Shown here piece by piece: positions 9,101-59,137 of a DNA stretch of 64,000 nt; position 1 is the first letter of the stretch, and each line of letters begins with the position of its first letter. A program made the translations under genes and the position numbers. Source of the DNA: Ceratodon purpureus (taxonomy: Eukaryota > Streptophyta > Bryopsida > Pseudoditrichales > Ditrichaceae); NCBI GenBank assembly GCA_014871385.1, contig CM026432.1, forward strand, positions 8,548,825 through 8,612,824, written 5' to 3'. The notes below the pieces were generated by a model. The model was not told where the DNA came from. It did no database searches and worked only from the letters and a program-made list of their open reading frames with translations.

Positions 9101-12100
9101 CCACACCAAAAATATGTCCCACGTGATCCTGCTCAGGTGCCCAAGAGCTTTATCAAAACTTAAAACAAAAGAATCATGGTAAAAAAAATGAATTCACGCT
9201 TACAATGTCAGTATGTTCATACGTTATACTATTTTAATTTATTGGTGAGCAAGTTCATAATTTCCGAATACTTAAACATATATGTAATGGCGTATTATGC
9301 ATTGATTGCATAAATGAGAAGTACTTGTAAAATATCCATCAACTTAATTTGGTTGAGATAGTGGCTGACTCCAAATGTACAATACATGTAAATGAATTTG
9401 CAGTTCTGTACAGTCGTATTTCAGTTCTTCAGAAATAATCTTTTAATGACAGTAATTTTTTACCACAGTTGAAGTTAACGTGCAAGATGCGTGCCTGGTC
9501 CTTAGGAAAGTACCACGCCTAGGAAGTGGCCTATCAGAACATTCCAATCAGTTTCTAAAAGAGCCGGGAAGATCTCACGGATAACTCCATCATCCACCTG
9601 CGCTTAGTAATGGCAAAAAAAAAGGGATTAGTGCACAAACAACTCCACAGAACAGTGAGGATATGGCAAACAAAAACTATACCAGTGAAACTAGGAATTG
9701 ATGATGTGTACAAAATCCAATGAAAACATGTGTAACTAGTTTCTAAACTTGGATAATATTGAAAAGGTGCGCCCCTTCAGACCAAATATCCTTGCCTTCT
9801 TCACGGGTAAGTATGATAGAACCAGGAAGAAAACAAAGCCTTGTGCATACTCGACGCTCAGATGTGGCCGCACCACAGAAATATACTGAAAAAAAGATTC
9901 TATATCACCTCGAACTGTAGACTGTGCAGTGCAAGTGGTCATAATCCATGGTTGACAACTAAAACCTAAGGAGCCTAGCCTGAACCTAACTATCAAGAAC
10001 TACAAAACAGATACAGTAGCCATGGGTAGAACGAAAAGAAGGTGGAACAAGAAAGCCAAACAGCTTAATCGATCTAGGCCGGCTTCAGATGTATCTGAAA
10101 CACTACCAGGTCAAGGCCAAGTGGAAGGGTGTACAATTGATATCGATGTTGAGTCCTCGCAATCGCTAGAAATACGTTTAGCGAAGGACTCGGTAGCCTT
10201 GAAAGCTCAAATCGATGATTACGCTGAGAAAGTTGAAGGCATGGTTCTCAATTTAAAAGGGCTCCTTGAGAGGTTACAAACCCTAAAGAACGAAGTACCT
10301 AAGAATAAATCCGTCAACTGTATGATTACACACTCACTTCAAGAAGTCGACACACTAGAGAACAGAACCTGTAATGCACCACCGAATTCAACCCCTCGAC
10401 TCAACAATCTCAGCCTGAATTTAACCCCCCGATTTGGCTTCGCTCCACTGGCTCACCAGGGCCCAAGTATTTTAAACTCAATCACGTTTGAAAGGTACGA
10501 TGGCAACAAGGACTTTAAAACAATCCACGACTGGTTGTATGCATTTGACGCGTATTGGAACATAATCACCATTCCAGAAGAAGATAAAGTGAAATTTGCA
10601 GCCTTGCATCTAAGAGGAGCAGCTGCTATCATCTGGTGTAAACATAATGTAAGGGCGCAGCAAGGGCACGAGACTATGATAAGCAACTGGGGGCAATTTC
10701 GAAACTGGATCATGCATAATTTTCTTCCACATAACTACGTAGACCAAACTAGGACAGAGTGGCGGAATTTAAGGCAAAAGAACAACACAGTTCAGTTATA
10801 CGTAGAACAGTTCGAGAATTGTTTATTGAGGGTGCCCGACACTGTAGACGAGTCAGAACAGGTGCATCATTTTCTAATTGGGTTGCGCAGGGACATCAGA
10901 CAGGAAGTAAAGGTTACCAAACCGGCCACCTTAGCAGAAGCTGTTTTTCAAGCAGAAGTAGTGGAGGAAAAACTGTGTAGCAAAAAAACAACTATTTCTC
11001 AAATGAATAAAAACAAAGAGGAGAAACATTCACGTAGCAAGAAAGAACCTAAGGAATTCGCCACATTAGACTATTTGACATTGATGTGTACACCAAAAAT
11101 TACTAAAAAGGTACAATTTAAGTGGCTAACAGATAAGGAAAAAGATGAGTATCGTAAGCTGGGCATGTGCTATGTATGTAAAAAACCAGGTCACACTACG
11201 TTCAAATGTCCTGAAAAAGTCGAGAGGCAACGCACTAATGCACTTAATAATCAAAATTCTCAGGAAATGGTTGAAGGCAGTTCCGTAGAAGGTGTAGATT
11301 ACGTCGAAAGCATCAAAGTCTCAAAGAATTCTCCAGATAAAAATACCACTAGAGGAAAGGAACCTACTGACAGCATTTCTGAATATGACCTCTTGAGGAT
11401 GCGATACGGTATTCTTAATGCCAAATAAGGGCACTAAAATTCAAATTCCCATAGACAGAGCTACCGCATTAGATCCTTCTACTGATAGAACAGGGCGAAT
11501 CTTAACATCAAAAATACCAAAATAGAAAAAGTTCTACGAGAGAGAAACTTACAGTATGAAGGTCCTTGACATTAAAAGAGTCAAATGGGTGCGCCACAGA
11601 AAAATGAGAGGGAAATAGCTTCATCCAAGTGTCGTCCCCCATCATCCGCACTTTCTTTCCAGCTCGTACCAGCTGCATCAGAAGTAAAATATTTAGTGAA
11701 GTAGAAAAAAGGAAGAGAAAAATCGTGTCAAAAAAATAAAAACTTCTAGAAAATTTCTTCATAGACAAACTAGTAAATTCCTCTGCATCTTCTGAGTGCT
11801 AGTTTATGTGCGAGAAACAATAATCTTCATATCCGTGTCGCTTGTTTGACTCTGTCGCATAGCATTAAGGGCATTGGCTCACGCCTGGGATTATGTCATC
11901 TGGAACTACAATGCTCTCAAATGCTATTGAATCAAGCTATCCTTTAATGGTATAGAGTAAACAAGATCGAACAGAATTAATCTCAAGAATACAAAGTTAA
12001 TTCTCCTTGGATCATTTCGTTGTTCAAGTCTCGAAGTATTTGCCTCTCCGTCGTTTCTTGTCCAATAATGCAGTATACACGGTCAAGAAGGAGTTGTGTT

Positions 12101-31925: not shown

Positions 31926-33469
31926 ATGTAGCCAATAGGCATCACCCGTGCAAACGCAGGGCGGGTCTTAACTCTTCCACACGCATGGCACCTCCCCTAT
32001 CCAAGCACATGTCGCGTTGAGTGATAAAAAAATAAAGAACTTATTACATTCAAGTAATACTATAACAGGCGTTAATGGGTATACTTCAGTTTATATAATA
32101 TAGGCAACAAGCAATACATTTCACTATTTTACATAAAGCTCCACTTAAAATAACTATGATAAATAACAAATGTATATATACAAATTGAGAGGTTTTTATT
32201 AGCCTTCTTTTTAGTGTCACAAATATGCCTCGTCAACCCATTATTTTCACTGCTTTGTAAAGTTGGGCGCTCTTCAACTTTTGGAAATGTTGGAAACTAG
32301 ATTGTTTGTATTTTTTGGTTATGCGAATTGGATCCAAGACGTTGGCTTAAGTAATGACTGTATTATGACAACAATGCATATCACTACATCAGCGATCAGA
32401 GCATTTCTCCATAGTCAACAACACTGAAATGCATGTTCATCGATTCAATCCTCTATTTGCCTAATTTACATTGCTATGTCTAGAAATTAACTACATTTTA
32501 CTTTTATTAGCAAAACTATATTTTTACTTCTAATATGGCAAAAAATCTCAATATAGTCCTCTTATAATATACTTTTATATATCTTCACACAATGCACGTT
32601 ATGAATGCATTTATAATAACTTTTATTTAAATGTTAAAACTTTTACAAATTAAAAAATGATTAAAATATTTATACTTCATAATGTTAAATTTGAATCTAG
32701 AATTATTATAGTAGTCAATGCAAACATGTTTTAGAATATAGTAGGACAGAAATCCATGTAGGACGTATTGGCCGACTCCCCAATGCCACGCTGAATTGTT
32801 AAAACTCAAATACCAAAACTCAAAAAATCCAAGGATTATTAATTGAGTCAAAGAAGGGGGGAAACGGATCACTCCCGGCAAAGGAACGGTAGTTGAACTC
32901 TTGAGTTCCATGTTACTCGAACCACAGACCTTCCAATTGTTAATCAAATGACCAAGGATCTTGATATCCGACCCGGTGCACAAGGGATTCGCTTCAAAGC
33001 GGAAGTCGCTGTAGATGTTGCTACTGGTAGATGGCCCTCCATGCAGCTACTTAAATTGGCTCAATTTAAATTTATATTATAATGTAGATTAACTTGAATA
33101 TATAACTACTTTGAAAATGAAATAAAAAACTTAATAGAATAGAGGTATAAGTTTTCTATACTCTACTTACTAGTATCAATATTCTATTTAAAATTTATTT
33201 AAAATATTTAAAATAAAAATATCATTGAAATTTAAATTTTTTATAAAATTTTAATTTTGAATCAATAAATTACTATACATAATACAAAATCATTTTGGCA
33301 CAATGTAAATAATTTGTATATTCTTTTGTATATTCACATGATATGTATTCTTTTATTTACATTTTTGTTGTATTTTGAATCATAGAAAAATTTCAAGTAA
33401 AAATAATCATTAAAAATTTACAAAATAATAAAATATAAATAATGCTATTATAATTTAAGTTTCTCGTAA
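31926..33469. other. AT-rich intergenic DNA, no gene
   Basis: No frame with a recognisable domain. A less AT-rich patch at 32800-33050 carries GTTCGA-like words, but no tRNA cloverleaf could be drawn. Confidence 0.45.
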
Positions 33470-33474
33470 GTTAA

Positions 33475-36400
33475 TGTCGGAACACGGAAACGCAACGAAC
33501 ATCCGGATAGCACTCAAAATGAGCGTAAACTTCCGTATTGTCACTGGGTTCCGAGTATCGTCCAGGGATTCAATAGTGCTTCACCAAGTAGTTACTCATG
33601 ATAATTCCGAGCCTTGCCACTGCTCGGATAGCGTTTTCGGAACGTATCTCTTTGACTCTCTTCCATGTTACGGACAGGTGTTTCGTCCACAACCCCAACG
33701 TCTCGAAAAGGATACTGCCTCACAATTGACTTAGAATACTTCTGGCCAGCAGGTCACACAGGTGACCACTCCTGATCCGTGAGACTACAACGACAAACCG
33801 ATCCGGATCTAGGAGAACCAAGATCCGATTATCCCTAGGCGACCCGTGCCACGTTCCGAATCCTCCTCTCACAGAGTGCGGAACCTCTTCAGAAGTTCAG
33901 GGAGCCCGATCAAGTACCCCTCGATCCGCTTCGACCCTAGCGACGGCTATTCCGCGTGAGGTTGGATTGAGGATGGAACAGTGAGGCTTCACTCCTACGA
34001 CAATCCGCTAAATCTTTCCGCTCAATCCCATTACCTTTCCGGTTCGGGTCTCGTCACAACTCCCATCACCTTCCTATTCGAGCTACAGCGGAACTCTCAT
34101 ATCCTTCCCGGATCATTCACACTTAACTGGAAACCACGCACAGTACTTGCAAAACACGAATACTTTACTGATAAGGAATATAGGGAGAAAACATGCAAAA
34201 CGAAGACCCGGACTCCATCGCCTCCCCTGTTTAAGTAAGCAGGGGCTTCCACAAAAGCGGCGGCGCCGGAATGTTCAATCAAAAACCCTAATTCCTAATT
34301 ATCTACCTAGAATCCTACTTTACGATTAACCCGGATCTCCCCGATCCGAAATCTACTCCTATAAATCCGGAAAGTGACTGCCAGTTCCACTAAGAGGAAT
34401 CTATCCCATCTTCGTCTTCTTGTGGCTCTCCGGCTCTCGGTCCTTCTCCTTCGACGGGGTCATCCGGGGCTCGGATCCTCCTGCCTTTGCTGCCCGCTCC
34501 GTCTGACGCCTAGCACTCCGTTCCTCCTTCAACTCGTTTGACTTGGTCTCCAAGAAAAGCCGGGTAACGACCCGTGTCTTCGGAGACTTGGGAGACTTGG
34601 GAGACTTGGGCAACATCCGCGAGGGAGGGGGTCCGGATGTCGGAGTTCGAGTCTCAGTTCCGGCTGTCCTTACCGGGGAGCTTGCGTGAGTATCCGAGTC
34701 GGACCCGGAAATCGTAATGGGCCCCTTCTCCTCCGGTTCCTTTCTCTTCCTCAAAACCATCCAAGCACCGGAACTGTCAGCGGGGGAGTCCACCACGAGC
34801 GTCTCGGTTGGCGTAGGAGTCACAGTCCCGGTCCGGGCTGTGGGTGAAGGGGTGAGTGCCCCCTCCTGAGTCACTCGGGTACGTCCGGTAGGTGAAATGG
34901 ACCTCCTCCATTCCGCTCCGGCTACCTCCCCTTGGTGAACCGGAATAATCACCGACGTATCTAGCGCCGGGGAAACAACCTGCTGCACGGACCGGGTCAC
35001 TTCTTCCGTAACCGTCTGCTCCTCGGATCGCCTAACAGTGACTGTAGTCCCCGTCACCTCTGCCTGTCCGGTGGAAATCGCGCAGCCTTGCTGAGCCGTA
35101 GTGGCTCCGGGTGACGCCTTCTTGGCCTGAGCTTCCCAGATCAGGTCCGCGATCGTCCGAGCCGGTGCGAAGATGTCCGAGTCAACCGCCATTTGCTCCT
35201 CAAACCGGAGGTTGCACTCCATTGGGGTCCTGAACCCTGCACCGCGAGATTCCCCTACCACGGTCCGAGAGGGAGATCCGGGAAGTCTGGTTCCGACGCT
35301 GGGACTTCCGACTCCCGGATTGAGCAACTTCCGAATCTGCTTCAGGATCTGGTTCATCGAGTGCTCGCATTTGGAAAGGATCGTGATGATCTTCTGCCTG
35401 TTCTCAAATTCAGCTGGCAGCATCACATTCTCGTCGAACAACATGGCCTTGTTGACTACATCACCCGGAACTCCTACCAACTTCCGGAGCTCACCCAAAG
35501 TCTCCTCCTGCTCAGCATGGAACTTACGGATCTCCTCGCTCTTCGTCGCCAGTTCCGAGGTAAGTTCCTTCAGCTGAAACTCCAACTGCTTCTTCTCGCT
35601 CCGAAGCTTTGGGGCATCCTTCAAAAGCTCCACCTCTCGGATCACCTCTTCCGGTAAACAGCCTCCGAGCGACGTGCAGACTCTTCGGAACATCGTCTCA
35701 ATCCGATCGTAAGAGGCATGCGCCCGATGAGTTTCTTTCCTGAGTGCCCGGAACGGGTCAACCGGAAATCCTGGCTTGAAACTGACCTCCTTCCGTTCCG
35801 TATCACCTCGGGCCGTGGAGGGTTCCGCGTGCTGCGACATAGCGCGTTCCGATCGCAACTTGGAGTGGGCCTTCGTAGCGCTGGGATTCGGAACGATCAC
35901 CGTATCATCTTCCCCTTTCGTGAACGCCGTATCCGAGGTTTCGCCGTGATGTACGACATCAAACCCGGGCGGAACCTCCTGAAAGCAGAGGAGGTTCTTC
36001 GCCACCGTATAACTCTCCTCCTCTTTATCCATCAGCAAGCTATTGGAATGATAGAGGTGGTAGAGAAAAGGGGTGATTGGGGTCGGCTTCTTTCCGATTG
36101 AGGGTACCATCTTCTGCATGGTTTCCGCTATGAGAGCAGCCCAATTCACCGGACGTTGCTCCGTGTACGCTCCGAAGATGGTGTTTCTGACCGTGATGGT
36201 GACCTGTTCCAATTTCAACGGATACAGGATCGGAACGAGGAAGGCTAGGACCTGTCTATGTCTCATATCCTTGCAGGCGTCTATCACGTATCCATTGTTC
36301 TTATGGATCTTCCCGTGGAACCTATCCTGCACGTACTTATCCGTCCGGGTTGCCCAAAGTAAGTTTCCGCCCACCGTTCCGCATTCCACAGAGTGGGCTT

Positions 36401-37117
36401 GCCCCGGATCGTATTGTCCCACCTATTGTCTGGTCCCTCGAGGATCTCCGTGACCATCGCCTCATCTTTCAGCAACCAAGGCCGTAACAGCAAACCCTCG
36501 CACCTCATCCGGGTGAGATCGTCAATCAACTCGTTCATCTCCGACTCTCTCACCGGAGTGGCAGGGCTAAGAACTCTACACCGAATGTGCGACATTGCTA
36601 CACCTTACTTCTCTCCCTTTGCGATCCGACAGCAAGAAACCCGGCAATCCAACTGCAAGTGAATCGGAAAAGACGAAACACCTCACCGCTCTTTCACTCC
36701 CTACTCCCAGTCCGCAAAAAGGAACTCCAAACCCTAACACTTCCGCTTATATACCCAGAGCACCATAAACGCTGTGGCGGCACGTAATTGCAGCCGCCAC
36801 CGTACCGGGCTCGACATTATCCGAGTCATGATGACTTCCGCGTCGTTTCGGATCCCAGACGCGGTTACGGTAACGGTCAGTTCTCGGATCGTCAACCCGT
36901 TCCGTGTTTTCTCTTCCGAGTTTCCGGGATCAAGGTTCCGAGAATACTTCCTGCGTTAACTGTTTTAAGGTTTCTGGAGTATCCGGTTTGTGTTAACTCC
37001 TAATGCGGCTAGTGTCTAGCTAGTTTTTACCTAATTAACCAAAAAAATGAAAAATCAATGGAATCCTAACTCCGGATGGGGCTCTTCCGGTTTATTCTGA
37101 GTTTCTCGGATCCCACA
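33475..37117 (-). mobile_element. Candidate inserted element, TTCCG/CCGGA-rich, bounded by GTTAA direct repeats
   Basis: Composition changes sharply at both edges: AT-rich DNA outside, and inside a dense use of TTCCG, CCGGA and CGGAT words in coding and non-coding parts alike. The interior begins TGTCGGAACAC and ends GGATCCCACA. GTTAA sits immediately outside at 33470-33474 and 37118-37122. A TG...CA element with a 5-bp target repeat is the pattern of LTR-retrotransposon integration. However, I find no long terminal repeats, no primer-binding site and no reverse transcriptase. A TTAA-site DNA transposon is the other reading of the same bases. Its only large frames are on the minus strand (34401-36595). 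Confidence 0.55.
34401..36595 (-). pseudogene. Large protein of unrecognised family carried by the element, one frameshift
   Basis: An ATG at 36595 opens a frame (MSHIRCRVLSPATP) that carries a compact conserved-looking block (EGPDNRWDNTIRGKPTLWNA, then ERWAE). It runs out of frame near 36350-36390. A second frame continues the same protein to a stop at 34401 (TRTDKYVQDRF, VLAFLVPILYPLKLEQVTI, NTIFGAYTEQRPVNWAALI). One single-base shift would explain the break. The middle (roughly 35.3-35.7 kb) is a likely coiled coil rich in E, K, L and R. The carboxy third is low in complexity, rich in T, S, P and V, with a KSPKSPKSPK run and a basic end. I recognise no catalytic motif. It could be a gag-like structural protein of an unclassified element or a captured plant gene. 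Confidence 0.6.
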
Positions 37118-37287
37118 GTTAATACTACATTGCTCTTACAAATGTATGATGGTAAAGTCGGTTTATAGATTTTTTTGATGGGGATTTATAATCGCTTATA
37201 AAAATAGTTATATATTAATATCGGAGGCGCCAATGATTTGCCATGGATGATATGCTACCGCGTAATTTAGTTAGAAAGTCAAATTTG

Positions 37288-37441
37288 GCTTAAAGTTTTT
37301 ATTTGTTCAAGAATACTATGTAGAAGGAAATAAAAGGTTATTGAGTTTCGTTATGAAGCTTTTCCTTACAAATCCTATCTATAAAATACATTACCTTTTA
37401 ATAGATATTTTGAAAATAGTATGGAATTACAGATATTAATC
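37288..37441 (+). repeat. Dispersed 154-bp repeat, copy 1
   Basis: Begins GCTTAAAGTTTTTATTTG and ends AATTACAGATATTAATC. It matches 58984-59137 with only a few base differences and no gap. The two copies lie 21.7 kb apart in the same orientation, so they belong to a repeat family of unknown type. Confidence 0.85.
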
Positions 37442-38803: not shown

Positions 38804-40477
38804 ATGATTTACCATCCCATCATAGATAATCTAAAAATACCACAGATTTACATACAAATTGCTCCCCCTACCCCTTTAAATACCCCGGTTAAACCCAGTA
38901 AGAAATGGTCCAAATTAGACTACCCTAATACACTAAAAAATAGCCCCACACATATCCTTCCAATCCCAAACTACCATACAAACATGTCACTAAAATTCGA
39001 AGCCCAACTCAGTTATTACACCGATGGCTCTTTCATACCTCCAAAAGAAATTGGCCCCAATAATGAATGGATGAGGGAAAAAGCTGGATATGGCATCTAC
39101 AGCCCTAAAGGTATTAACATCCCCAAAAGACTCCATGGACACCAAAACATTTTACGAGCTGAAATGATGGCTATACACGAAACACTAAGAATCATCAACA
39201 CACAATTTCCTAATGAACCCGCATATATATTTACGGACTGCCTAAACGTCCTATATTTATTAAACACGCAAATCAAACACCCCACACTACACAATAGTCA
39301 CCCCGATCAAACCACACTTGCCTCCATGGTAGAACTACTCCAACAAAGAATACAACCCATTTCTCTACACAAAGTCAAAGCACACATCAACATTGATGGT
39401 AACGAGAAAGCGGACAAACTAGCAAAAATCGGTGTCGACCTAGAATATATAACTGACGAACACCCATACGAACACGCGCATGCTACCCTATACTACTACC
39501 AGAAAGATGTATGGCCATCCATGATAGATATGCCAGACAAAGGACCAGTTAGAGACCTAGAAAAACAAATCAAGAAATACGATAGAGAAAAAAACTTAGA
39601 AATTATGGCTATACAAACTCCCAATATTTACAAATGGACAGCAAATGAAGATATAGATAATGAACTCTCCAATGAATTCTGGAAAAATCCAATCATTACA
39701 GACAAACAAAAAACATGCCTTATCAAATTTCGTATTGGAACATACATGGGCCATGCTAGGAAACAAATGTTCTTTGGAAGAGAAAGATTTCCATCCATCA
39801 CATGTCCTATTTGTAGATCACATGAACCGGACACATGGTTACATGTGTTACTCACATGCCAACAACAACACATACATTCACTCCGCGTCAAAAGACACAA
39901 CAAAGCAGTTTGGGAAATCCGTAAACTACTAATCTCATCGGAAAAATCTCGCTGCTATATTCTCATGAATGCTCGAACCTTCAATGATAAACCCCCAGAA
40001 AATACTGTACCAAATTGGTTACTCCCTTGCACATGTGGCACACAAAGATGCCACTGTAACTCGAGATTTAGACCAGACATCTTATGTGTGAAAGGCCTAT
40101 CTTACCAAAGTGAACCCCCTTCTGAAATGAACCCCAACCTTACAATACAATTTATTGAATTTACATATTGCAATGACAGATTCTCCCCAGAAACACTCCA
40201 AGCCAAAACTAACAAATACAATCCATTAATCGCTAATATCACTGCTCTAGGATGGAAAGTTGACCCTCTTATCGTCATTACAGCCGGCGCTAGAGCAACT
40301 ACGCACATTCCATCAATGAAATCACTTGAAGAAAAATTCCAAATACCGATGCCCACCATCAAAAACACCTTCAAAAACATAAACACTATCGCCATACAAT
40401 ACGCCATATCCATTCTACTCCACAAAAGAAGAATAGAAAACCACCAACCGATTCCCAAAACATTAGAACCTCCTTAG
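38804..40477 (+). mobile_element. 3' part of a non-LTR retrotransposon: RNase H, zinc knuckle, restriction-like endonuclease
   Basis: An uninterrupted 557-residue frame from an ATG at 38804. RNase H domain at about residues 68-215, with the four acidic residues in place: YYTDGSF (D74), LRAEMMAIHE (E120), YIFTDCLN (D145) and GNEKADKLA (D204). A zinc knuckle follows, CPICRSHEPDTWLHVLLTC (C334, C337, H347, C352), then RHNKAVWEI. A Cys-rich turn PCTCGTQRCHC (409-418) comes next. Last is a PD-(D/E)XK-like endonuclease core: RFRPDIL (D425), FIEFTYCND (E452) and KTNKYNPL (K468/K471). This order matches the carboxy end of LINEs with a restriction-like endonuclease, and with RNase H present most resembles the Dualen/RandI type. 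No reverse transcriptase lies upstream, so the copy is 5'-truncated. The coding strand is notably poor in G and rich in A and C. Confidence 0.75.
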
Positions 40478-45223: not shown

Positions 45224-48200
45224 CTACGACATAATCAACTTACAACAGTCCACCTTGTGTACTCGTTGCAATATTGACCGTCCACTATCAGCATCTTGCA
45301 CGAGGCGTAGAAACCCACAATCATTTGCTTCCACCACTCGCATTTCCTTCAAATCTCCGCGCACGTGAAGATATTGGTTGTCGTCGAGGCAATCGTACCA
45401 AGAAGGATCTCGATAGTTTCTGTCCAAAACAATTAGACACGATCCTGAAAGATTGGTGACAGAAGTGCATCCCCAAATGCGAAGGCCTGGCAACACTCTC
45501 AGCACACCCAAACCCTCCAGGCTGCCACAATCCAATATTTGTAACGACCCCAGCGCACTCAGCTGCCTGAGAGACTCCGGAAGTGCCTGCAACTCACCGC
45601 ACCCCTCAATCCCCATCCACACAAGCCTGGACAAGTGGCCGATGGACTCTGGGAGCTTGGTGAGGGATCTGCAGTGCACAATCGATAGCAGTTCCAAACT
45701 CGTGAGGGCACCCAAACAATGAGGCAGAGTCTCCAGGCTGCTGCATCCTCTCAGGGTCAGTCTCGTGAGCAGTTTGAGATGTCCGATGCTGTTGGGGAGC
45801 TCCCGCAAGTTCTCACAACGCCATAAATAGAGCCAGTCCAGATTCGTGAGAAGTCCGATGGTGTGAGGGAGCTTGCTCATGGCCGGGCTGTCATAAAACC
45901 GAATATTGGAAAGGTGGTGGAGATGGGCGAGCGAACTCTGTTCATTGAGCCATATGATTCCCTCATCACTGCAGTTCACTACTACGAGTTCCTTGAGCCC
46001 GTGGAGTTGTCCAACAGCGACTGCTTGCCATTCAGTCGTAAGGTCTGTAGCAAACCAGGTAAGGCCCGTCATGAGCCCCATTGATTCTGGTACCTTGGAC
46101 ATGGATGTGCACATGCCCATGATAAGCCGTTTCAACCGAGGCAGGGCACTGATGGAATCCGGCAATGATTCTAGGCTTCTACAGTCCTGTAGATGGAGTA
46201 ATTGCAATTGTGTGAGTTGTCCAATTGTACTTGGTAGCCTCTGCAAATTCTGACATCCATATAAGTTCAATACTTGAAGTCGAGATAATTGCCCTATGGA
46301 ATCTGGGAGAGTAATGATTGATGTGCAATCCTTCATACAAAGATTGAGCAAGTTTGGACAACCCTGAAAAGCACAACAAGTAATGAGTATCAAAATTCAA
46401 TCACAAAAAGACGAATCATCCAAACAATAAATTGTTATTGTAGATTGCAATTATAACTTCAATTGTAAGCAATTTGATTAATAAAGTCAATAAAGGATAT
46501 AAATTTTAAAATACTTACTTTCTTTTTCCTTTTATATATTTCAATTGCAATGTAAGATTAGCATAAGAGAAGTTATGGTTGAAGCATCAAAATAATTTTA
46601 CGTATTTCAACATCAAATTTGAAATTTAAGATAATTTTTGTTCAAATTATACAATGTAATTCATAATCATAACTTGGATTTTCTACCTTAAACATGATTT
46701 GATCAAATTGAAGTCCAAATGCTCATGTGGCTCTATTAATGCATGAATTTTCTATTTCCATATTTTGAATGTAAGCATTAAAGGTTTAAGAATTCAGAAA
46801 CTAATAAACTCAAATCATTATACATCTTAAGGTGAAAATTGAAGTATCAAAATGCAAGCTTGTTCAATTATAGATTTAGCTTTAAAACCAAATGCAATTA
46901 TCATATATGAAAATATACTTATGTAAATTTAATTCTTATTTAGTTTATATTTCAAAAAACATCTCTATGCTTTACACATTAAAGAAAACAAACAATATTA
47001 GAAAAAATAATCTACATTTGAGGGTTGATTTCAAAATTCTAAATGAAACAATCATTGTTATGTTAAATTAATACATCTTATTTTTCAATAGATGTAGACT
47101 AAATTTGAATTCTAAAGAATACATGTAAGTTCATACAAAAGTATTTTAGATAAAGAGATATTTTTTATAATTTACAAATGCTATACTTCATTGTTTCTAC
47201 ATTCATCCATGATTTAAAAAGAAAATCCACTTATTAATTGGTGGTGGAAAATATCAACCCATTTTGCTTTATTTTATTAAAATGTACATCTGGAATTCTT
47301 GTCAATTCATCATTAAAAATTAATTCAAAATCATTAGTGCTATCACTTGATTTTTCAATTCATTTTTTGATTTTCTTCTATCTACATTTGACATGTCTTA
47401 TCAATCAATACCATAGTTGTATTAAACAAATATTCCTTTTCAAAATAAAGTATTTAACATATATACAATTCAATCAAACTCTAATCCAAACTAGAATGTA
47501 GAATAATGTACCTCTGTTGCTGAATTTGATTCAGTCCATATACTAGCAAGGCCAGGGCTATTAGAAAGATCCAATGCTACCAAGTTGAAAAAATTCAACA
47601 TTCGAGGTACATGTTTCAATGGCATGTTCCTCCATTGCAACCACCGTAACTCTTTTGAAACATCATCAAAATTCCCACTTACATCACATCCATCCAATAT
47701 AAGATAATGTAAGTTGGTCATCTTTGCAAAACTCTCACATTCATATTTGCGTTTTCGACTCTTTGCGAGATTGAGCGCCTTTACTTTGTTGTACCTCTGA
47801 ATAATCAAAAAAAATAAAAACACCTTTTTTAAATTTTATAGATGTACCATATATGTATTCTTCAAGATTCTTCATAAGTAATATCATTTTTATATAACAA
47901 AATTTTAAAAAATGTACAAAAACATTATGGATAGCAAGTAAAAACTTACATCATAATTCTCTTCAACAACTTTGGCAGCTCTGTTCTCCCATAAATGGCT
48001 TCCACTCAGTATTCCAATACTTTGGCCCAATTCTTGTAGTAGACCATGCATCACCAACTCTTCTTGTCCAAAAAAATTCCTAACTCCAACTAATGACTTA
48101 TCAATGAGATTCCTCAAAGTCATATGAGGGGTCTCATATCCGCAACATGATGAACATCCCTTACAACTTTTCCAAATCTCTACAACCTCTTGCTTTCTGA

Positions 48201-50059
48201 GGTTGCAGAATACACAGGCAATATCCACAAACATCATCTTCTCTTCAACAGAAAGACAATCATAACTCCATCTTAAAGTGTTTATCACCTTCACCTCTCC
48301 CTTTAAAGCACTCACCGCCTCAGGCCAGATACATTCCAAATCTTCATCGCTTTTCTTATCCATCAAGCTAGAGCCCACCACCTTCAATGCTAGTGGCAAA
48401 CCACCACATGCTTTGCTCACATCATTGGCTACATCCTCGAACTTTGGAGGAGCTTCTTCACTACGAAATGCATGCATGTTGAAAAGCTTTGTAGCGTCAC
48501 TAGTCTCCAAGGGTGTCACTTCATGAAGAGAGAAATTTTGAGACTCTCCACTAATAACCTTCAACACATGGCGATCCCGAGATGTAACAATGATGCAACT
48601 CCCTTGTCCAAGAAGACCTATATCTAAGATGATGTCATCAAATTGGCTCTTCTCATGGATGTCATCCAACACAATCAATGTTGGACCTTTGTGTGATAAC
48701 TTGTGAAACCAAGAACTATAACTGCGAGCATTGCAATTTTGAACATGCAAAAGATCCCAAAGTAGTTGATTCTGCAATTTCTCCACCATACTTGAAGAAC
48801 TCAAAGTTGAGTTATGATCAACTATCAAAAAACTCATGGCTTGAAACTTCTTGTGATTTACAAAATGGTTGTAAATCAGCTTGGCAAGAGAGGTTTTACC
48901 GACTCCACCCATCCCCACAAGGCCCAATAAACCTGTGGTATTCGATATCATCTCCATCTTCTTGACGCATGCATGAACATGCTCTTTGACACCCACCATG
49001 CAACGATCAACTTGCAATGCCTCATATGAAGGTGTCAACTTGCTCAATATGGCACCCACCACTTCCTGTTTCAGTTCTACTTCGTCACTGCGCCAGGAAA
49101 ATCCGTCATTAGTACTTCATAATTTCCCCCACTAAATCCAACATTCATACTTACTTAAAATGGACTGAAAATTGGATGAGGCATGTCCTGAAATAATCGA
49201 TACAAGTGATAATTTAACTCTTAATCATGTGACCGGTGTATCATGACACTCCATACTCTACACTCCTTTATAGTACGAATTGCATGCCTGATAAACTTTG
49301 GGTTTGACATGACTCTCTTGCCAAAGAATAACCCTCTAGCTCTGCATGCCCATGCCTCGACAACAAAAGTACAAGACTGTTGTAACTATAACTCAATAAG
49401 AAACTCAAGCATAGCTAGTGATGCCAACAAAGTGGATTACAGTTCAATCAAGTCAAGTGCAATCCCATCACAAAACAAACTTTCATTCCGGGAGGGGTAC
49501 AAACATATCACGTAAACTTGAAGAGAGACACTCACCCCTTGTAATCAGACGGACGATAGCAAAATCCAGTGATGTCCGCCAAATTCCGAAGAGCTTCGCT
49601 CCATTCATCCACTTGCTCCGGTGATCTCTTGGACTTATGTTTCTCAAATGCCGCTGCAAACGGGCCATTCTCCACCCACCGCAAGTGTGCAGGCTCCACC
49701 TCGTAGTACACAGGTATTACTGGTTTTCCGCTCCTCAACATGTCAACCAGTTCACTCAGGCAATACTTCGACTCTGCATATCCTTTCGAAACAACTGCAA
49801 CATGGATCTTCGCCACTTCCAGAGCGTCATTTATGGACCTGAAAGCAGGATCCCCCTTCCTCAACGATGCCTTGTCCAGAAACGGATTCAAGCCAGCGTC
49901 CCTAAGTGCTTCATCCAAATGGGCCACAAATCCAGCTTTCACATCAGGCCCACGGTGGTTCAGGAACACGTCATAGTCCACGCCCATGGCTGTAGAAGAA
50001 GAGCATTGCCCTCGGGGACGTTTGCAACGCCTCCATAGTCCAAGAGCCCGGCCATCCAT
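45224..50059 (-). CDS. TIR-NB-ARC-LRR immune receptor, 4 exons
   Basis: An intracellular immune receptor of the TNL class. Exons: 50059 (or 49987)-49536, 49087-47950, 47796-47512, 46363-45224. Phases agree. Length is about 1004 residues from the ATG at 49987 (MGVDYDVFLNHRGPDVK), or 1028 from 50059. The TIR exon holds VSKGYAESKYCLSEL, which includes the conserved NADase-type Glu. NB-ARC: P-loop GMGGVGKTS, RNBS-A/kinase 2 TLIVLDDIHE, RNBS-B CIIVTSRDRHVL, GLPL motif CGGLPLALKVVG. The MHD position reads VMHGLLQELG (codon GGT at 48043-48045). The last exon is a run of about ten LRRs of the type LPDSIGQLSRLQVLNLYGC, then a carboxy part (SGSCLIVLDRNYRDPSWYDC) to a TGA-free end at KLIMS. The exon 3 to 4 intron is about 1.1 kb and could hide a further LRR exon. 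No partner gene lies beside it. Confidence 0.9.
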
Positions 50060-58960: not shown

Positions 58961-58998
58961 ATAAAAACTTTAAGCAAAATTTTGCTTAAAGTTTTTAT
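58961..58998. other. Perfect 38-bp palindrome at a repeat junction
   Basis: The left half reads ATAAAAACTTTAAGCAAAA and the right half is its exact reverse complement, with no loop. The left half abuts the Copia fragment. The right half runs into the 154-bp dispersed repeat, whose other copy (37288) carries only the right-half sequence. The left half therefore looks like an inverted duplication of the repeat's first bases. Confidence 0.9.
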
Positions 58999-59137
58999 TT
59001 GTTCAAGAATACTATATAGAAGGAAATAAAAGTTTATTGAGTTTCGTTATGAAGCTTTTCCTTACAAATCCTATCTATAAAACACATTACTTTTTAATAG
59101 ATATTTTGAAAATAGTATGAAATTACAGATATTAATC
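58984..59137 (+). repeat. Dispersed 154-bp repeat, copy 2
   Basis: Counterpart of 37288-37441 in the same orientation with few mismatches. It starts inside the right arm of the 38-bp palindrome. Confidence 0.85.

Follow-up and report, generated by a model that had tools for sequence, protein, structure and literature searches.

The moss Ceratodon purpureus carries, within the 64,000-nucleotide stretch analysed here as a whole (the window, C12:8548825-8612824), a 3.6-kb insertion that is a solo long terminal repeat (LTR) of a Ty3/gypsy-type retrotransposon, with its sense strand on the minus strand. This LTR has a protein-coding gene of its own, and the word TCCG, counted on both strands as TCCG/CGGA, is in excess over the whole element and is apparently preserved by selection. 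We give a probability of about 0.9 to these results taken jointly, namely the copies, their target-site duplications (TSDs), the polarity, the existence of a full-length relative, the purifying selection that once acted on the LTR protein, and an element-wide word excess that is due neither to codons nor to host mutation and was kept between two lineages. The original prediction had described an unclassified insertion with its own word bias and had offered either foreign origin or an unusual replication or silencing history as the cause; its observation is confirmed and its interpretation is partly supported. The oddity is real but differs from the one proposed, being a gene inside an LTR together with an apparently selected element-wide word and not a foreign composition.

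The mobile insertion with TG...CA ends and GTTAA flanks was confirmed at 33475-37117 (Table 1). It is 3,643 bp long with TG at 33475 and CA at 37117, so that in sense orientation (window minus strand) the TGTGGG start lies at 37117 and the CCGACA end at 33475. Within ±150 bp of both borders no other TG..CA pair has exact 5-bp flanks. It may be noted that shuffled sequences give a mean of 0.26 such pairs, with at least one pair in 23% of them, and therefore the GTTAA flanks alone are weak evidence. Segmentation using the TCCG/CGGA word alone, however, placed the block at 33478-37110, in agreement with the TG..CA/TSD borders, so the ends are backed by two independent signals; GC segmentation gave a start at 33476 but an end at 36955. 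Inside the block the GC content is 0.536 against 0.403 outside, and the observed/expected (o/e) CpG ratio is 1.01 against 0.63 (these figures, and those for five-letter words below, were computed on 33474-37117). No LTR-like repeat pair exists inside the 33475-37117 block, as had been stated, yet the conclusion that it does not fit a standard LTR element has to be given up, the block being itself one LTR of a Ty3/gypsy-type family. As a separate observation, 33451-33466 in the left flank matches the right end of the LTR (37093-37108) over 16 nt at 81% and contains AGTTTCTCG, which is probably a chance match.

The genome (362 Mb, 151 contigs) was searched with the block, and as 40 of 820 candidates were scored the copy counts are lower bounds. 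At least 47 matches were obtained, at least 40 of them at E=0. Among these best 40 of 820 candidates, the E=0 matches other than the window's own show 85-92% identity, and 28 of 40, the window's own included, span the block end to end. The best 30 matches were fetched, comprising 25 complete and 5 truncated copies. Copies with common end bases and differing 5-bp flanks, the check proposed originally for a mobile element, were indeed found: exact 5-bp TSDs flank 12 of the 25 complete copies and no two are alike, though one of these copies (L019) has a CT end in place of CA. Of the other complete copies, 5 of 25 have flanks with one mismatch and 8 of 25 with two or more. Four of the 30 fetched copies (L005, L007, L022 and L024) have common sequence beside the same LTR end; as L007 adjoins this common internal sequence, its one-mismatch flank is not a TSD. 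The sequence adjoining L007 and L022 encodes gag, zinc knuckles, reverse transcriptase (RT), RNase H and the first part of integrase in the window-minus-strand orientation. Against this assignment stands that a second LTR was not found in the ~9.9 kb fetched for each of the two.

A full-length relative of 13.4 kb settles the class. Over ~3.65 kb its two LTRs show 3 substitutions and 7 gap columns, and GCTAC is present on both sides as a 5-bp TSD; it is young, and the family has been recently active. Between its LTR and that of the window the identity is about 80-81%. The gag of the relative matches Pfam Retrotrans_gag and has zinc knuckles, and its pol is ordered RVT_1, RNase H, Integrase_H2C2, rve, which is the Ty3/gypsy order. 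No Pfam match to an aspartic protease was seen in the family's own frames examined. A TGGCGCC-type motif lies 10 nt downstream of the 5′ LTR, a putative primer binding site that may fit tRNA-Asp. Since the relative has the same LTR around gag-pol, the family is of Ty3/gypsy type, and the window copy, where one complete LTR stands between identical TSDs and internal sequence is absent, is a solo LTR. By the standard route, the two LTRs of a ~13-kb element would have recombined, with gag-pol lost and the TSD kept.

Table 1. Features of the solo LTR in the window and of its full-length relative (plain numbers are window positions).
Feature	Position	Strand	Detail
Solo LTR, Ty3/gypsy-type retrotransposon	33475..37117	-	TG..CA and TSD; end-to-end genome matches; ends and TSDs of copies; gag beside CCGACA end in relatives
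TSD GTTAA, left copy	33470..33474	.	sequence
TSD GTTAA, right copy	37118..37122	.	sequence
118 TCCG/CGGA words, 32/kb	33478..37110	.	extended form ~G-W-TCCG-R
Main frame of LTR-borne gene, 673 aa	34401..36422	-	residues 20-671 69% identical to 88-733 of the 734-aa relative
N-terminal frame of LTR-borne gene, 103 aa, broken	36284..36595	-	residues 1-84 75% identical to 4-88 of the 734-aa relative
TATA-like box	36748..36753	-	158 bp upstream of the open reading frame start; putative promoter
Full-length relative	C6:2801064-2814433		13.4 kb; LTR pair and GCTAC flanks
Full-length relative, 5′ LTR	L036:4437-8090		
Full-length relative, internal region	L036:8091-9873 + L038:1-4274		
Full-length relative, 3′ LTR	L038:4275-7933		

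The reported saturation with TTCCG, CCGGA and CGGAT in coding and non-coding parts holds, as the excess is present in all three parts of the LTR (5′ non-coding, open reading frame (ORF) and 3′ non-coding). For TTCCG, whose count had been suggested as a check, we obtained 13.4 per kb inside against 0.9 outside, for CCGGA 12.1 against 0.8 and for CGGAT 9.9 against 0.9, an 11- to 15-fold enrichment over the rest of the window. The 118 TCCG/CGGA words of the block compare with 48 in dinucleotide shuffles (0/300 reach the observed count), and none of 300 shuffles reaches the count in any of the three parts taken separately, where the densities are 32.6, 32.8 and 31.3 per kb respectively. A trinucleotide-based model, which was fitted to the element itself and so absorbs much of the bias, still gives observed/expected values in the same order of 17/14.4, 72/54.8 and 29/20.5 for TCCG, and of 8/4.7, 27/14.5 and 14/6.6 for TTCCG. 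All 25 complete copies have 24-32 words per kb. The internal regions of L007 and L022 have 26-27 per kb and the full-length relative 31-34 per kb in LTRs, gag and pol, compared to 3.3 per kb in its right flank and 9.9 on its left side, which partly matches other repeats. On shuffling codons with protein and codon usage fixed, the window ORF has 68 words against 37.5 (0/2000), and the excess persists in gag (55 against 29.4), an RT piece (30 against 11) and pol (137 against 72; 0/1000 each). Codon usage as the cause of the bias is therefore rejected. The extended form ~G-W-TCCG-R occurs in both the window LTR and the whole full-length relative. Word spacing is not unusually even (140/1000 random placements were as even or more), and expectation-maximization refinement of the motif returned only a blurred palindrome. 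Three other retroelement frames that were tested have no TCCG excess. The bias is absent from a gag frame of a different Ty3-type element at 10022-11428 of the window, and from a single 1,916-aa open frame near the L022 copy (L032:1870-7617) with gag and weak protease matches, apparently another young retroelement.

Both orientations of the word are present and about equally conserved (0.65 and 0.70), which fits recognition on double-stranded DNA. We tentatively assign the TCCG words a putative DNA-recognition role, at somewhat less than even odds. Alternatively the words may act at the RNA level, in packaging, nuclear export or binding of genomic RNA by the Gag zinc knuckles. In favour of this, they run through the whole element, gag and pol included, and the sense strand of the full-length relative is richer in CGGA than TCCG (197:121). 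But by simple arithmetic this CGGA excess is close to the prediction from base counts of the purine-rich sense strand, and an orientation-specific RNA motif is weakly disfavoured by the occurrence of both orientations in the relative, with their similar conservation. We consider the RNA alternative possible but unlikely.

To judge whether the word is maintained, variants were classed by the number of LTR copies that share each (1, 2-3, or at least 4). Single-copy variants are mostly post-insertion, and widely shared variants are older and were carried by replicating lineages. Among single-copy variants 120 TCCG words are lost and 26 gained, and C/G sites change most, CpG above all; host mutation thus erodes the word bias. 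Yet the window LTR has 118 words and the relative's LTR, at 81% identity, has 123, of which 82 are common and 36 and 41 private. The conservation of TCCG between these two LTRs is 0.68, the 4th of 130 tetramers, against 0.35-0.55 for other CpG tetramers, and between the L007 and L022 internal regions it reaches 0.72, where the mean is 0.63. Singletons are as frequent in TCCG columns as in others (rate 0.376 vs 0.341), yet TCCG columns have diverged half as much from the relative (0.066 vs 0.137, odds ratio 0.44, p=2.9e-5), and their divergence is likewise lower when non-coding DNA is taken by itself (odds ratio 0.34, p=0.017). The CG of the word diverges less than other CG (odds ratio 0.39, p=0.011 overall). 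Variants found in at least 4 copies alter the word in 29/279 cases compared to 146/868 for single-copy variants, a deficit with p=0.018 against context-neutral changes and 0.0045 against other CpG changes.

Several points weigh on the other side. The CG comparison gives p=0.15 in non-coding DNA, and the TC half of the word alone is not significant (p=0.12). On the divergence/singleton ratio, three of 71 words (GATA, AGGG, ACGG) outrank TCCG, with fewer columns. Variants shared by 2-3 copies alter the word most often (98/382), which goes against a plain gradient with frequency; repeated change at CpG could be behind this class. All these p-values are nominal, as they come from one diverged relative and from copies of common descent. 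Taken together, the word appears to be under selection in coding and non-coding parts, for which the evidence is good but not final.

The opposite view is that the bias is a functionless relic of foreign origin, by horizontal transfer from a TCCG-rich donor, or of a mutational process. The sharp contrast with the host (32 vs 3.3 words per kb inside and outside the block) and the CpG o/e of 0.92-1.06 in all 25 complete copies would suit a relic, and the 2-3-copy class, which does not fit selection neatly, speaks somewhat for it as well; we hold this view to be improbable. As the sole cause of the bias, foreign residue is rejected by the loss and gain of words against their kept number and by the low divergence of word columns; the foreign origin first suggested finds no support as an explanation of the present bias. 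Moreover, peptide patterns of the 673-aa frame found no relative in IMG/VR or in a prokaryote genome set, a search confined to viral and prokaryote donors. From the other suggestion, an unusual replication or silencing history, what stands is the element-wide bias, apparently kept by selection.

The LTR-borne ORF has ~735 codons in sense (nt 524-2728 of the LTR in L019). It is uninterrupted in 2 of the 25 complete copies (L019 and L026), and in the full-length relative the frame is open in the 5′ LTR (734 stop-free codons) and not in the 3′ LTR. The window copy is frameshifted, with the gene split into overlapping 103-aa and 673-aa frames, and hence cannot make the protein in one piece; the large protein without transposase or polymerase motif described originally is in reality this broken gene, though it does lack a Pfam family. 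In 300 dinucleotide shuffles of the window copy the longest stop-free stretch is 280 aa. On counting non-synonymous plus stop against synonymous variants in the ORF we obtained 388:120 for single-copy variants, 132:110 for those in 2-3 copies and 79:109 for those in at least 4 copies. Between the first and last class the odds ratio is 4.5 with p=5e-17, nominal because the copies have common ancestry, but the direction is plain: purifying selection acted on the LTR protein in the period when the element replicated. In an intact element each 3.65-kb LTR carries the ~735-codon gene in sense, downstream of the TATA-like box, so that the gene is present at both ends and is retained in solo LTRs. 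The minus-strand box is weak alone given other TATA-like matches on the plus strand at 34360 and 36748. Two AAACCCTAA teloboxes also lie in the LTR, at 34283 and 36729, the latter close to the putative start of the ORF transcript; two others are in the rest of the window.

The 673-aa frame has an N-terminal part, a middle that by eye is charged and coiled-coil-like, and a basic tail that contains three SPK repeats as well as an RKRK cluster. These repeats and basic clusters are compatible with nucleic-acid binding but are not proof of it. Weighing against the overall reading, Pfam matched no family in the window frames, with sub-threshold coiled-coil-type matches only, nor in the 734-aa relative, and the AlphaFold model of residues 1-175 of the window main frame was useless (mean predicted local distance difference test, pLDDT, 37). 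NCBIfam was uninformative for the LTR frames and the PDB sequences gave a single match at E=0.58. A second repeat family (L037:6152-8269 and L036:1-1380, minus strand) has related proteins of 706 aa and 460 aa, with TCCG densities of 23.7 and 20.9 per kb around them; its borders were looked for in L037 and not found. The 706-aa frame in L037 is 34% identical to the LTR protein over ~215 N-terminal residues, which suggests an older lineage of such genes. One may suppose the ORF to be a host gene that was captured, or a frame open by chance, with no role for the element, as it has no named family and most copies are broken. However, the strong depletion of amino-acid changes among shared variants and the related protein of the second family make this very improbable. 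As for a short non-autonomous element or DNA transposon with its own gene, which the window copy alone might suggest by its lack of an LTR pair and gag-pol, it is rejected with next to no probability left, for the full-length relative has the LTR unit on either side of gag-pol and four of the 30 copies adjoin gag-pol sequence.

The solo-LTR family resembles plant Ty3/gypsy elements (non-chromovirus, and Athila/Diaspora/Calypso-like by its putative primer site) in its TG..CA LTRs, 5-bp TSD, gag, RT-RNase H-integrase order, long LTR and extra ORF, and putatively in its TGGCGCC-type primer site. Diaspora and Calypso are described as primed by tRNA-Asp (PMC1142308). The extra ORF of Athila in sunflower is said to resemble Transposase_32 (PMC11728184). 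Unlike that lineage, the extra ORF of this family has no match to Athila ORF-1 (PF03078) or Transposase_32 (PF20167), either in the window frames or in the 734-aa relative. Extra ORFs of plant elements, as far as these accounts go, belong to the internal region, mostly between pol and the 3′ LTR (PMC7264820, PMC6317226), whereas here the ORF is inside the LTR; an element-wide word excess likewise does not feature in the descriptions of plant Ty3/gypsy elements considered. LTRs of several kb are found in other long-LTR elements such as Retrosat2, which is described with an LTR of more than 3.2 kb containing U3, a 2-kb R and U5, and with ORF0 and ORF1 (PMC3485330). In the parts of that account considered, no gene is reported for the Retrosat2 LTR, unlike here (PMC3485330). 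No plant element in which the LTR holds a conserved gene came up in a limited check of the literature. The sag gene of mouse mammary tumour virus (MMTV) also sits in an LTR, but MMTV is an unrelated animal retrovirus and the protein is unrelated.

Coming back to the DNA-recognition role, the words would be sites on double-stranded DNA at which a protein encoded by the element binds. The LTR-borne protein is the most plausible candidate; by coating the DNA of its own element it would counter silencing or mark that DNA for another step of the cycle. In its full form the proposal is that the retrotransposon encodes in its LTR a sequence-specific DNA-binding protein whose word (~GWTCCGR) is written across the whole 13-kb element, coding DNA included, and that by covering this DNA the protein de-silences all copies, whether full-length or solo; we regard this form as doubtful. 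The nearest parallel among the accounts considered is VANC of the VANDAL DNA transposons, which is reported to bind a short motif accumulated in the element and to lower methylation of cognate copies (PMC5735166, PMC10398659). Both systems, as far as VANC is described there, would combine an element-encoded non-transposase protein with a short accumulated motif, though VANDALs are DNA transposons and this family is an LTR retrotransposon. The comparison also tells against the proposal in two respects. The VANC motifs are given as 8-9 bases in non-coding (tandem) repeats (PMC5735166), and the word here has fewer bases, is dispersed and occurs in coding DNA as well. Further, no Pfam match to the VANC-type domains DUF1985 and DUF287 was obtained in the window frames or the 734-aa relative; with no Pfam match in the LTR frames, the DUF1985 of VANC is not detected. 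The parallel is one of functional logic only. No LTR-element anti-silencer was found in a limited check of the literature.

The copies are unevenly distributed in the host. C6 (110,524,308 bp, 30.5% of the assembly) holds 32 of the 39 E=0 matches that remain when the window's own is left out (nominal p=4e-11, the sample being the best-scoring candidates) and 8 of the 12 exact-TSD copies. Sex chromosomes of 110.5 and 112.2 Mb are reported for Ceratodon purpureus (PMC9273592). By this match in size, C6 is possibly a moss sex chromosome. Most exact-TSD copies are on C6 even though little recombination is assumed for sex chromosomes. Within the window, a 161-bp dispersed repeat is found at 37281-37441, starting 164 bp beyond the insertion end, and at 58977-59137 (96% identical). 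A 557-aa frame at 38804-40477 (plus strand) has an RNase H domain followed by a CCHC-like cluster and by a stretch similar, by eye, to a PD-(D/E)XK endonuclease; it has no match among PDB sequences and may represent the terminal part of an unusual non-LTR retrotransposon. Neighbouring NB-ARC and leucine-rich repeat frames at 45224-49062 belong to a disease-resistance-type gene, with CpG o/e 0.30 in the NB-ARC frame. Rfam and tRNA searches within the window were uninformative.

The functions of additional ORFs in plant LTR retrotransposons are described as largely unknown (PMC7264820, PMC11728184), and the work on VANC poses the question of how one protein recognises a whole long element (PMC5735166). 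A recently active family that unites a conserved protein encoded in the LTR with a dense word apparently under selection makes both questions directly testable. If the coating and de-silencing proposal is true, solo LTRs with an open frame would by themselves suffice as anti-silencing genes, with an effect in trans on behalf of the family. A word bias taken at first for a foreign one can be a signature that the element maintains.

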